Part shown: positions 2,420 through 6,000 of the stretch, in pieces | Layout of the letters: every line of letters begins with the position of its first letter | Position numbering within the stretch: position 1 is the stretch's first letter | NCBI GenBank assembly: GCA_027028665.1 | Contig: JALVIU010000053.1 | Location: 1-6,000, forward strand | Origin: Candidatus Atribacteria bacterium | GTDB taxonomy: Bacteria > Atribacterota > JALVIU01 | Direction: 5' to 3' | Length of the DNA stretch: 6,000 bases | Position numbers and translations under genes: made by a program | The notes under the pieces: generated by a model | Database searches by the model: none | What the model was told of the DNA's origin: nothing | The model's input: only the letters and a program-made list of their open reading frames with translations

Positions 2420-5404
2420 GTGAATCATACAGAGATACTTGTTTGTCTTGGAGCAGGGTGTGTTTCTTCTGGTAGTCTTAAGGTTAAAGAGGCATTTGAA
2501 AACCAGATAAGGGAACTCGGCCTCTCCAATAGTGTAAAGGTTATTGGGACAGGATGTATGGGACCCTGCGAAAAAGGTCCTGTTGTAAGTATAAAGCAGC
2601 TCGGTCTATACTATCAAGATGTTACACCAGATAAGGTAGAAGATATTGTACATGCCCACTTTGTAAATAATACACCCAAAGAGGAATATCTTTTTAAAGG
2701 GGCCCAGCAGTTTTTTAAAAAACAGATGAAGATTGTGCTTGCCAATTGTGGCCAGATAGACCCGGAAAGCATAGATGATTATATAAATACAGGGGGATAT
2801 AAAGCTATAGAGCAAGTACTTAAGATGGAGCCTCAGAAGGTTATAGAGATGATAAAGGAATCTGGCCTTCGCGGAAGAGGAGGGGCAGGGTTCCCCACTG
2901 GGGTAAAATGGGGATTTGTAAGAGCCGCAAAGGGTAGTCCAAAGTATGTTATATGTAATGCAGATGAAGGAGACCCCGGTGCATTTATGGATAGAGCCGT
3001 CTTAGAGGGAGACCCTCATACTGTACTTGAGGGCATGCTCATTGCAGGTTATGCCACAGGTGCATCTCATGGTTATATATACATAAGGGCGGAATATCCT
3101 CTTGCCATAGAAAGATTGAAAAAGGCTATATCACAGGCAAGGGAGAGGGGATATCTGGGAAACAACATTTTAGGTACAAATTTCTCCTTTGATATAGAGC
3201 TTAGAATGGGAGCAGGTGCATTTGTATGTGGAGAAGAAACTGCACTTATTGCATCCATCGAGGGAAAAAGAGGTATGCCCAGACCCAAACCGCCATTTCC
3301 TGCAAATAAGGGCTTATGGGGAAAACCTACCCTTATAAATAATGTGGAGACCCTTGCAAATATACGACATATAATCTTAAAAGGACCTTATTGGTTTAGA
3401 TCTGTGGGCACAGAAAAAAGTCCTGGGACAAAGGTCTTTGCCCTATCTGGAAAGGTGAAGAATACAGGACTTATAGAGGTACCAATGGGGACTCCACTGG
3501 GAGAGGTGGTGTTTGATATAGGAGGAGGCCCTCCAAAGGATAGAAAATTTAAGGCTGCCCAGATAGGTGGGCCTTCAGGTGGGTGTCTTACCAATGTTCA
3601 TCTGAATACCCCTCTTGACTATGAACATGTTACAGAGGCAGGGGCTATCATGGGCTCAGGAGGACTTATCATATTAGATGAGGCTACCTGTATGGTAGAG
3701 CTTGCCCGATTTTTCCTGGAGTTTTGTCAGGACGAATCCTGTGGCAAATGCCCTCCATGTAGGGCAGGTACAAAGAGGATGCTCGATATCTTAGAGAAGA
3801 TTACCAGGGGAGAGGGTTCCCTTGAAGATATAAAGACTCTTGTAACACTTGGAAACAAAATAAAGGATACAGCCCTTTGTGGTCTTGGTCAAACTGCACC
3901 AAATCCGGTGCTTTCCACTATACGTTACTTTGAAAAAGAATATGAGGCACATATTATTGATAAAAAGTGCGAAGCAGGGATATGTGCAGAACTCTTTATA
4001 GCACCTTGTGAAAACAGGTGCCCTGCCAATGTAGATGTTCCAAGTTATGTAACATATATTGCAGAGGGTAGATATAAAGATGCATTTTATACACATATAA
4101 AGAACAATCCATTTCCATCCATATGTGGAAGGGTTTGCCCTGCACCATGTGAAGACTTCTGTCGCAGAGGCCAGATAGACGAACCTATTGCCATAAGACA
4201 GCTCAAGAGATTTATGTCAGATGTGGCACTGGATAGGGATTGGACCCTTCCAGAACCTGTACACTACAATGGAAAAAAAGTAGCAGTTGTGGGTGCAGGA
4301 CCTGCAGGCCTGGCAAATGCCTTTTATCTTAACCTCAAAGGATATAAAGTTACAGTATTTGAGGCTCTTTCCGAACCAGGAGGTACGATGACATATGCAA
4401 TCCCTGAATATAGATTACCAAAGGAAATTATCCTGAAGGAGATCAAACGAATTGAGGATTCAGGGGTAGAGATAAGGTTGAATCAGAGAGTAGAAGACCT
4501 TAATCCTTTAAGAGAGGAATTTGATGCAGTATTTCTGGCATGTGGATCTATGAAAGGACTTCCTCTCGGTATTCCAAGAGAAGATGTACAAGGTATTTAT
4601 GACGGAATAGAATTTCTCCATGCAATAAAGCAAGGAGAAAAGGTAGAGATAGGAGAAAAGGTGGTAATAATAGGTGGTGGAAATACAGCAATTGATGCAG
4701 CAAGATGTGCAAGAAGAAGGGGGAAAGATGTAACGGTACTTTATAGAAGAGAGAAAAAGGATATGCCTGCACTAAAGAGCGAAATAAAAGAGGCAGAAGA
4801 GGAAGGTGTAAGGTTTATATACCTTGTCACCCCTGTCGAATTTCTAACCAAACCAGATGGAAGTGTAGGGAGTATAAGGTGTATAAGGGTAAAACTTGGA
4901 GACTTTGATAAAACAGGAAGGAGAAGGCCAATACCCATAGAGGGATCAGAATTCGAAATAGAGGCAGATACGGTAATAAAAGCAATAGGGCTTACCACCA
5001 ATATACCTTTTGCAAAAGATGGAATAAAAGTGAACAAAAGAGGTTATGTAGAGGTAAATCCAAGAACCATGGAAACATCTATCCCAGGGGTGTTTGCAGG
5101 AGGAGATCTTGTAAGAGGACCATCTCTTGTAATAGAGAGTATTGCAGATGGAAGGTTAGCTGCAATAGGCATAGATAAGGCCCTTGGTGGTGATGGGGTA
5201 CTATTTTATGAGGAAAGACGACCTGTGGAGACAACATACAATGAAGAACCTTATCTGGAGAAGATGCCAAGAAGAAGACCTAAGAAGATGGATCCAGAAA
5301 AGAGGATTTACTGTTTCCGTGAGGTAGAGGAGACCTTCTTTGAACATGATGCAATTGAAGAGGCAAGAAGGTGTCTCCACTGTGACAGGAAAGAAGAGGA
5401 GTGA
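2420..5404 (+). CDS. stnB: HydB/NuoF-GltD fusion: flavin subunit with NADH and NADPH modules (StnB-like)
   Basis: This 994-residue flavoprotein should exchange electrons among NADH, NADPH and iron-sulfur partners. Domains in order: a thioredoxin-like [2Fe-2S] domain (1-85; C9, C14, C46, C50); the NuoF FMN/NADH domain (about 110-340, with GLRGRGGAGFPTG at 149-161, CNADEGDPGAF at 179-189 and CGEETALI at 270-277); an SLBB-like segment (about 340-420); and a [4Fe-4S] site (C441, C444, C447, C487). From about 511 a GltD/NfnB half follows: an alpha-helical ferredoxin region (cysteines 530, 534, 569, 573, 577, 581), an FAD fold (GAGPAG 625-630), a nucleotide fold (GGGNTA 752-757, with YRRE 775-778 suggesting NADPH) and the closing FAD motif (AGGDLVRG 893-900). 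The HydB C-terminal two-cluster ferredoxin is absent. The architecture matches Stn-type bifurcating transhydrogenase. The start is GTG behind GGGAGG (2406-2411). Domain calls are firm; the Stn role is inferred. Confidence 0.9.
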   Translation: MNHTEILVCLGAGCVSSGSLKVKEAFENQIRELGLSNSVKVIGTGCMGPCEKGPVVSIKQLGLYYQDVTPDKVEDIVHAHFVNNTPKEEYLFKGAQQFFKKQMKIVLANCGQIDPESIDDYINTGGYKAIEQVLKMEPQKVIEMIKESGLRGRGGAGFPTGVKWGFVRAAKGSPKYVICNADEGDPGAFMDRAVLEGDPHTVLEGMLIAGYATGASHGYIYIRAEYPLAIERLKKAISQARERGYLGNNILGTNFSFDIELRMGAGAFVCGEETALIASIEGKRGMPRPKPPFPANKGLWGKPTLINNVETLANIRHIILKGPYWFRSVGTEKSPGTKVFALSGKVKNTGLIEVPMGTPLGEVVFDIGGGPPKDRKFKAAQIGGPSGGCLTNVHLNTPLDYEHVTEAGAIMGSGGLIILDEATCMVELARFFLEFCQDESCGKCPPCRAGTKRMLDILEKITRGEGSLEDIKTLVTLGNKIKDTALCGLGQTAPNPVLSTIRYFEKEYEAHIIDKKCEAGICAELFIAPCENRCPANVDVPSYVTYIAEGRYKDAFYTHIKNNPFPSICGRVCPAPCEDFCRRGQIDEPIAIRQLKRFMSDVALDRDWTLPEPVHYNGKKVAVVGAGPAGLANAFYLNLKGYKVTVFEALSEPGGTMTYAIPEYRLPKEIILKEIKRIEDSGVEIRLNQRVEDLNPLREEFDAVFLACGSMKGLPLGIPREDVQGIYDGIEFLHAIKQGEKVEIGEKVVIIGGGNTAIDAARCARRRGKDVTVLYRREKKDMPALKSEIKEAEEEGVRFIYLVTPVEFLTKPDGSVGSIRCIRVKLGDFDKTGRRRPIPIEGSEFEIEADTVIKAIGLTTNIPFAKDGIKVNKRGYVEVNPRTMETSIPGVFAGGDLVRGPSLVIESIADGRLAAIGIDKALGGDGVLFYEERRPVETTYNEEPYLEKMPRRRPKKMDPEKRIYCFREVEETFFEHDAIEEARRCLHCDRKEEE

Positions 5405-5410
5405 TGGGAT

Positions 5411-6000
5411 ATGGGAAAGATAAGTGTAAAGATAAATGATAAAGAGATCGTATGTGATGAGGGGAAGAGTATCTTAGAGGTAGCAAGGGAAAATGATATA
5501 TATATTCCTACACTCTGTTATCATGAAGGACTTGAGGCCTATGGAGGATGCAGGCTCTGCCTTGTAGAGGTAAAGGGAAATCCAAAGCTCCTTGCAAGCT
5601 GCTCTACCCCTGTATCAGATGGTATGGAAGTATTCACAGAAACAGAAAGGGTAAAAAGTTCGAGGAGATTCATTCTTGATTTGCTTATGACAGAGAGAAA
5701 TCACTTCTGTATGTTTTGCGAAAAAAGTGGTCCTTATGAGACTACAGATTGTGAACTGGAAAAAGAAGCATATGAAGTAGGGCTTGATCACTTTATATTC
5801 CCTGTATATGAAAAGGGCTATAGTGTGGATGCAAGCTCTAAAGACCTTGTAATAGATCACAATAGATGTATATTGTGTGGTAGATGTGTAAGGGTCTGTG
5901 ATGAGATAGTTGCAAATTCTACATTGAGCTTTGGATATAGAGGGAGTCAAGCACTTATAGTGGTAGACATCGGACAGGAAAGAGATGAGTCTACCTGCAT
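5411..6000 (+). CDS. NuoG/HydA-type iron-sulfur subunit, N-terminal part (runs off the window; StnA-like candidate)
   Basis: This electron-wiring subunit should carry electrons between the flavin subunit and ferredoxin or an attached catalytic site. The frame is open for 196 codons to the right edge. A plant-type [2Fe-2S] domain comes first (C36, C47, C50, C64; YGGCRLCLVEV). A NuoG-type His/Cys cluster region follows (H98, C100, C103, C114), then a ferredoxin-type [4Fe-4S] motif (RCILCGRCVRVC: C153, C156, C159, C163). C196 probably begins a second such motif. The His/Cys region reads H-x1-C-x2-C-x10-C, unlike the usual NuoG H-x3-C-x2-C-x5-C. ATG at 5411 sits six bases after the upstream stop, with AGGAG (5397-5401) overlapping the end of that gene. 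Nothing in view decides between a short StnA-like protein, an [FeFe] hydrogenase HydA and a formate dehydrogenase alpha subunit. Confidence 0.85.
   Translation, partial: MGKISVKINDKEIVCDEGKSILEVARENDIYIPTLCYHEGLEAYGGCRLCLVEVKGNPKLLASCSTPVSDGMEVFTETERVKSSRRFILDLLMTERNHFCMFCEKSGPYETTDCELEKEAYEVGLDHFIFPVYEKGYSVDASSKDLVIDHNRCILCGRCVRVCDEIVANSTLSFGYRGSQALIVVDIGQERDESTC

Follow-up and report, generated by a model that had tools for sequence, protein, structure and literature searches.

A HydB-GltD fusion in an Atribacterota operon, probably the diaphorase of a HydABCSL-type [NiFe]-hydrogenase linked to NADH and NADPH

The 6,000-bp stretch of DNA analyzed here (the window) is the entire contig C53 of a draft genome of Candidatus Atribacteria bacterium (1.79 Mb, 413 contigs, about 90% complete). 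Three genes lie head to tail on its plus strand and encode a NuoE-like subunit, a 994-residue protein in which a HydB (NuoF)-type subunit is fused to a GltD-type domain, and a HydA/NuoG-like subunit, which is truncated because the window spans the whole contig. Judged from sequence comparisons, this operon probably encodes the diaphorase (HydA-HydB-HydC) of a HydABCSL-type [NiFe]-hydrogenase in which the ferredoxin domain of HydB has been swapped for a GltD-type NADP(H) domain, so that bifurcation would link H2 to both NADH and NADPH. The swap itself is already known from [FeFe]-hydrogenases, and the window is best read as a variant with a [NiFe]-type partner. The first-pass annotation had described the same three genes and assigned them to an Stn-type (Sporomusa-type) transhydrogenase balancing NADPH, NADH, and ferredoxin. 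Its description of the fusion and of the two flanking genes was borne out by the open reading frames, Pfam, an AlphaFold2 model, and 71 further full-length relatives; its assignment was not.

The fusion gene (positions 2420 to 5404; all features are on the plus strand unless stated otherwise) starts with GTG. The first gene of the operon, 24 bp upstream (1935 to 2396), encodes a 153-residue NuoE/HydC-like subunit with a thioredoxin-like [2Fe-2S] fold (PF01257, E 2.3e-52; also matched by HoxE and NuoE models), and the third gene begins 7 bp downstream of the fusion. Residues 1 to 526 of the fusion match the full core of HydB. This core comprises a thioredoxin-like [2Fe-2S] domain (PF01257, residues 4-78, positions 2420 to 2653) with Cys9, Cys14, Cys46, and Cys50; a flavin mononucleotide (FMN)/NADH-binding Nuo51 domain (PF01512, E 2e-51, residues 145-316, positions 2852 to 3367); an SLBB domain; and the NADH_4Fe-4S domain (PF10589, residues 428-511, positions 3701 to 3952), in which Cys441, 444, 447, and 487 would bind the N3-like [4Fe-4S] cluster B1. 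Next comes the motif HIIDKKCEAGIC (3950 to 3985), whose His511, Cys517, and Cys522 align with His525, Cys531, and Cys536 of HydB in structure 7t2r. In the HydABCSL structure, these three residues are called the B2 [2Fe-2S] site (PMC8880783), while other structures treat the site as a zinc hinge (PMC10482914). Alignments with HydB and StnB end at residue 526 or 527, GltD comes next, and the C-terminal ferredoxin domain of HydB with clusters B3 and B4 is missing. Thus, of the complete HydB/NuoF flavin subunit claimed earlier, the NuoF part is indeed complete, whereas as a HydB the protein is not, its B3/B4 domain having been replaced by GltD.

The GltD part contains a Fer4_20/DPD_II domain for two [4Fe-4S] clusters (PF14691, residues 515-606; positions 4004 to 4237, with Cys530, 534, 573, 577, and 581) and a double Rossmann domain for flavin adenine dinucleotide (FAD) and NADP(H) (Pyr_redox_2, PF07992, residues 619-911, positions 4274 to 5152). 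The latter bears the motifs GAGPAG, GGGNTA, and YRR, and its Arg665 is equivalent to Arg201 of NfnL and Arg239 of StnC. Lys596 (4205 to 4207) occupies the position of StnC Lys170, which is a Glu in NfnB; 64 of the 72 fusions have Lys here and eight have His. A CxxC pair, Cys985/988 (5372 to 5383), is C-terminal as in StnC rather than N-terminal as in NfnL. The resemblance of this part to StnC therefore extends to detail, and the earlier claim that one subunit combines an FMN/NADH and an FAD/NADPH module agrees with NADP-binding residues that are intact across the fusions.

Conservation shows the protein plan to be genuine. The B2 residues, the B1 cysteines, the GltD cluster cysteines, and the glycine motifs for FAD and NADP are invariant in the window protein and its 71 full-length relatives, as are Cys46 and Cys50, while Cys9 and Cys14 are found in most of them. 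The spacer from Cys522 to the first GltD cysteine, Cys530, is exactly seven residues in 72 of 72. Because so many relatives keep the key cofactor residues, a chance fusion, a frameshift, and an assembly error are ruled out. The AlphaFold2 model (mean predicted local distance difference test score 87.6, predicted template-modeling score 0.80) has two halves, one matching StnB and HydB chains, the other matching the GltD parts of NfnABC/StnC and of NfnL. According to the StnC study, an FAD site of this type transfers electrons without bifurcation (PMC10482914). For this reason, the GltD domain is most simply taken as an NADP(H) port rather than a second bifurcation site, a role with which the retained YRR, FAD, and NADP motifs and the StnC-like Lys596 are in accord.

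The type of enzyme is indicated by the third gene (5411 to 5998; 196 residues up to the contig end). Its best match in the PDB, with 195.5 bits, is 7t2r_A, the HydA subunit of the bifurcating Acetomicrobium mobile enzyme NiFe-HydABCSL; the next solved chain, an FeFe HydA, scores 123 bits. A tree of 84 A-type subunits puts it in a clade (ultrafast bootstrap 100) with 7t2r_A, HoxU, and proteins of loci L026, L030, L037, L039, and L049. All typed members (7t2r_A, HoxU, L026, L030, and L037) are linked to [NiFe]-hydrogenases, and the L039 and L049 proteins are contig-truncated and untyped. Alignment and phylogeny thus both type the third subunit as HydA of a [NiFe]-hydrogenase. It aligns through the Nqo3-type clusters up to residue 196 with no GltD insert, whereas the GltD part of StnC begins near residue 102. 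The first-pass annotation had named a clustering of the fusion with hydrogenase-linked subunits as speaking against its Stn assignment; the grouping of the third subunit, together with a NuoF domain nearer to hydrogenase HydB than to StnB, is a result of that kind.

The catalytic subunits HydS and HydL are not on the window contig, and we infer their membership in the operon from relatives and from the rest of the genome. A complete operon of the same plan is found on a Desulfobacterales chromosome (L037, CP070697.1), where NuoE, the fusion, a 627-residue HydA, HydS (PF01058), and HydL (PF00374) stand in a row. A probable second case is the L049 genome, in which a C-terminal HydA fragment and HydL share a separate contig. 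Both lend support by analogy to HydS and HydL as partners of the window operon. In the genome analyzed here, the sole cytosolic-type NiFe large subunit is a HydL-like fragment at the end of contig C280, and its best PDB match is the A. mobile HydL (7t2r_D, 380 bits versus 258 for the next chain). Judged from homologue lengths, a gap between C53 and C280 would span about 2.2 to 2.7 kb, shorter than every contig retrieved from the bin; a short contig may therefore plausibly have been lost.

Other partners in the same genome were considered and rejected. An [FeFe]-hydrogenase is a common neighbor among the relatives (16 of 51 loci), but no match to PF02906 was found in this genome (about 90% complete) and the third gene is of another type. 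A formate dehydrogenase is ruled out because FdhA, on contigs C286 and C297, adjoins its own plain HydB; this second NuoE-HydB-FdhA set, with a FocA-like transporter, runs over contigs C257 (L010), C286 (L009), and C297 (L103), which are joined by exact 127-bp overlaps. The HydB paralogue of this set stops soon after the hinge motif. It lacks the ferredoxin domain and has lost the second hinge cysteine, and for these reasons is probably non-bifurcating. Contig C112 is excluded as the origin of the missing HydS, as it encodes a membrane-bound group-4-like complex. Two such NiFe/Mrp-type complexes are present, on C28 (L094) and C112 (L102); the C112 large subunit has the sequence VCRICVPDPDPNEANY and thus probably lacks a normal Ni-site motif.

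If the preferred assignment is correct, H2 would be split at the NiFe site of HydSL and electrons would pass through the Fe-S chain of HydA and cluster B1 to FMN. There, one branch would reduce NAD+. The second branch would run over the [2Fe-2S] cluster of HydC, the B2/zinc hinge, and the GltD clusters to FAD, where NADP+ would be reduced; in HydABCSL the branch through HydC and B2 ends in the ferredoxin domain, whereas here it would end in GltD. The net reaction would be 2 H2 + NAD+ + NADP+ <-> NADH + NADPH + 2 H+, a reversible process in which ferredoxin has no part. Run toward H2 evolution, it would have NADPH assist NADH in driving electrons onto protons.

Several points weigh against this proposal. 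Neither HydS nor HydL is on the window contig, the bin has no small subunit of the appropriate type, and no overlap joins C53 to C280. In the literature (open-licence papers in PMC), no biochemistry of such a fusion was found. The GltD domain at the C-terminus of HydB need not be the low-potential branch, since the GltD of StnC feeds FMN from the NuoG side. Finally, a HydB of Syntrophomonas wolfei without B3 and B4 has been reported as non-bifurcating, as cited in a passage of PMC11406978, and bifurcating coupling is thus not assured.

The same S. wolfei report makes an uncoupled enzyme the main competing explanation, one to which we give perhaps a one-in-five chance. According to it, the operon belongs to the same hydrogenase, but the FMN and FAD sites act independently, as in a dual-specificity H2:NAD+/NADP+ oxidoreductase in which GltD merely adds NADPH as a second carrier. 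The window protein has likewise lost B3 and B4, as has the S. wolfei HydABC described as non-bifurcating in that passage of PMC11406978, and its StnC-like Lys596 suggests that the FAD itself does not bifurcate. On the other hand, the NuoE partner and the B2/zinc site with His511, Cys517, and Cys522, both part of the bifurcating core, are retained, and the distance to GltD does not vary, in contrast to the formate dehydrogenase-linked HydB paralogue of the same genome, which lost the second cysteine.

A role for ferredoxin was the least supported part of the first-pass reading, because the HydB domain that would serve it is absent. Ferredoxin docks at the two-cluster GltD part of NfnB, and the corresponding domain of the fusion resembles this ferredoxin-interacting part in the alignment with 5jca_L. 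An enzyme in which ferredoxin still docks at a GltD Fe-S cluster and is coupled with H2, NADH, and NADPH is nevertheless improbable: the outer cluster lies seven residues past the B2 hinge and should face HydB, and the usual ferredoxin domain of HydB is gone.

Even less probable is the Stn-type transhydrogenase, which would interconvert NADPH, NADH, and ferredoxin without H2. The module types are the same, the GltD part is nearest to NfnABC/StnC chains in the PDB, and the StnC-type Lys is present. However, the subunits of Stn are StnA (NuoE), the 63.5-kDa StnB, which resembles HydB and has two [4Fe-4S] sites at its C-terminus, and StnC, which is NuoG-like and bears GltD. The GltD of Stn thus sits in StnC, and its HydB-like subunit is unfused (PMC7483475, PMC10482914). 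The window has GltD on the NuoF-like subunit, which lacks the ferredoxin domain, and its NiFe-type third gene contains no GltD; on this architecture and this third gene, identity with Stn is rejected. In addition, the NuoF domain is nearer to hydrogenase HydB (7t2r_B) than to StnB, its nearest neighbors in the tree being plain HydB proteins and 7t2r_B, while the StnB chains form their own clade. Forcing the window protein and StnB into one clade costs 52 log-likelihood units, which is not decisive, as the approximately unbiased (AU) test does not formally reject the constraint (p 0.093). The genome also has an intact NfnB-NfnA transhydrogenase, encoded by adjacent genes on C323 (L011, 7349-9573, minus strand).

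Relatives occur in nearly all genomes of the window's phylum (47 of 50), and about 30 of the matches are fusions of full or almost full length. A survey covered 51 fusion loci, of which 16 stand beside an [FeFe]-hydrogenase, nine beside a formate dehydrogenase, and six beside a formate dehydrogenase with a methylene-tetrahydrofolate (THF) reductase. The others adjoin a methylene-THF reductase (one), a formate dehydrogenase with an [FeFe]-hydrogenase (one), a NiFe large subunit of another type (three), or HydL (one), and 14 are cut or unassigned. It is quite possible, although we hold it with less confidence than the assignment of the window operon, that the window enzyme represents a [NiFe]-hydrogenase with a Bfu-type bifurcating core that uses NADP(H) in place of ferredoxin as the low-potential partner and so couples H2 to NADH and NADPH jointly. 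In this reading, other phyla use the same fused module with an [FeFe]-hydrogenase, a formate dehydrogenase, a methylene-THF reductase, or possibly a glutamate synthase.

For the NuoF domain, the AU test rejects one common origin of all fusions (p 0.0018), and it gives a borderline result (p 0.063) for placing the window NuoF domain in the main fusion clade. The window NuoF domain groups with unfused HydB proteins, whereas its GltD part groups with those of L045, L013, and L051. Because the NuoF parts do not form one clade and the two parts of the window protein are placed differently, the fusion has probably been made, lost, or exchanged several times.

Several loci have features of their own. 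In seven from the window's phylum (L169, L171, L174, L175, L176, L177, and L178), a second NuoE-NuoF pair stands behind the fusion, with an [FeFe]-hydrogenase or formate dehydrogenase after it, which puts two FMN modules in one operon. In Dehalococcoidia and deltaproteobacterial metagenome-assembled genomes (L015, L018, L020, L021, L022, L027, and L034), the fusion is clustered with FdhA and/or MetF, often together with DUF5981 (MetV-like); a possible product is a formate and methylene-THF reductase complex linked to NADH and NADPH. A protein with a glutamate synthase domain adjoins the fusion in L019 (11003-14677), L041 (11864-13447), and L046 (2607-6783), with glutamate dehydrogenase as well in L019 and L046. 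A link of the fused module to glutamate synthesis is possible; nothing on HydB-glutamate synthase fusions was found in the same literature. An otherwise similar operon in L056 has, in place of the fusion, a 553-residue HydB with neither a ferredoxin domain nor GltD (7983-9644), and that genome also carries a separate HydA-HydS-HydL cluster (L192). L012, a metagenome-assembled genome record titled Akkermansia muciniphila, contains an [FeFe]-hydrogenase operon close to a Kiritimatiellae one (L014), and its title may be misassigned. In the window itself, two genes on the opposite strand (3-569 and 570-1748) look by eye like an ABC transporter permease and a sugar-binding protein and lie outside the system.

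The current view is that bifurcating hydrogenases cannot do without a ferredoxin arm. If the preferred assignment is true, an NADPH arm set at a constant spacing from the hinge would mean that one low-potential acceptor can be exchanged for another, and the main interest of the fusion is that this becomes testable. It would also give anaerobes a direct link between H2 and NADPH without ferredoxin or a separate Nfn. With physiological potentials of about -280 mV for NADH and about -370 to -380 mV for NADPH (PMC10482914, PMC9304861), a 1:1 mix averages about -325 mV, which we estimate would allow H2 evolution to roughly 100 Pa, compared with about 3 Pa for NADH alone. The module may underlie many genes now annotated as plain NuoF or GltD.

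Four known systems come closest to the window operon. First, in the NiFe-HydABCSL of A. mobile (7t2r/7t30; PMC8880783), the HydB core and the HydA N-terminus are the best solved matches, the B2 site is conserved, and HydL is nearest to the orphan HydL of the genome; its HydB, however, ends in a two-[4Fe-4S] ferredoxin domain, where the window protein has the FAD/NADP(H) GltD domain. Second, NfnAB (5jca) shares the GltD-like FAD/NADPH fold and the equivalent of Arg201, but has two subunits, a Glu ligand of the FAD-proximal cluster, an N-terminal CxxC, and NfnA as the partner, in place of Lys596 and the NuoE- and HydA-like partners of the window. Third, StnABC/NfnABC (8oh5, 9bov, 9n5u; PMC7483475, PMC10482914) shares the NuoE and NuoF modules and a permuted GltD module, with Lys for the Glu ligand of NfnB; StnABC differs in having GltD in the NuoG-like StnC, a ferredoxin domain retained in StnB, and no hydrogenase. 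PMC9304861 classifies the Bfu enzymes, and the words GltD, fused, and fusion are absent from its text; no report of the fusion with a NiFe-type partner was found in the literature surveyed. The swap has been known since 2024 from the [FeFe]-hydrogenases of Hydrogenedentota (PMC11406978), whose authors raise the question of whether the FAD might be an additional bifurcation center. There, in the sub-type I BfuABC, a DPD_II domain and an FAD/NAD(P) domain replace B3 and B4 of BfuB just as in the window protein, while the catalytic partner, BfuA, is an [FeFe]-hydrogenase and the third subunit of the window is of the [NiFe] type.

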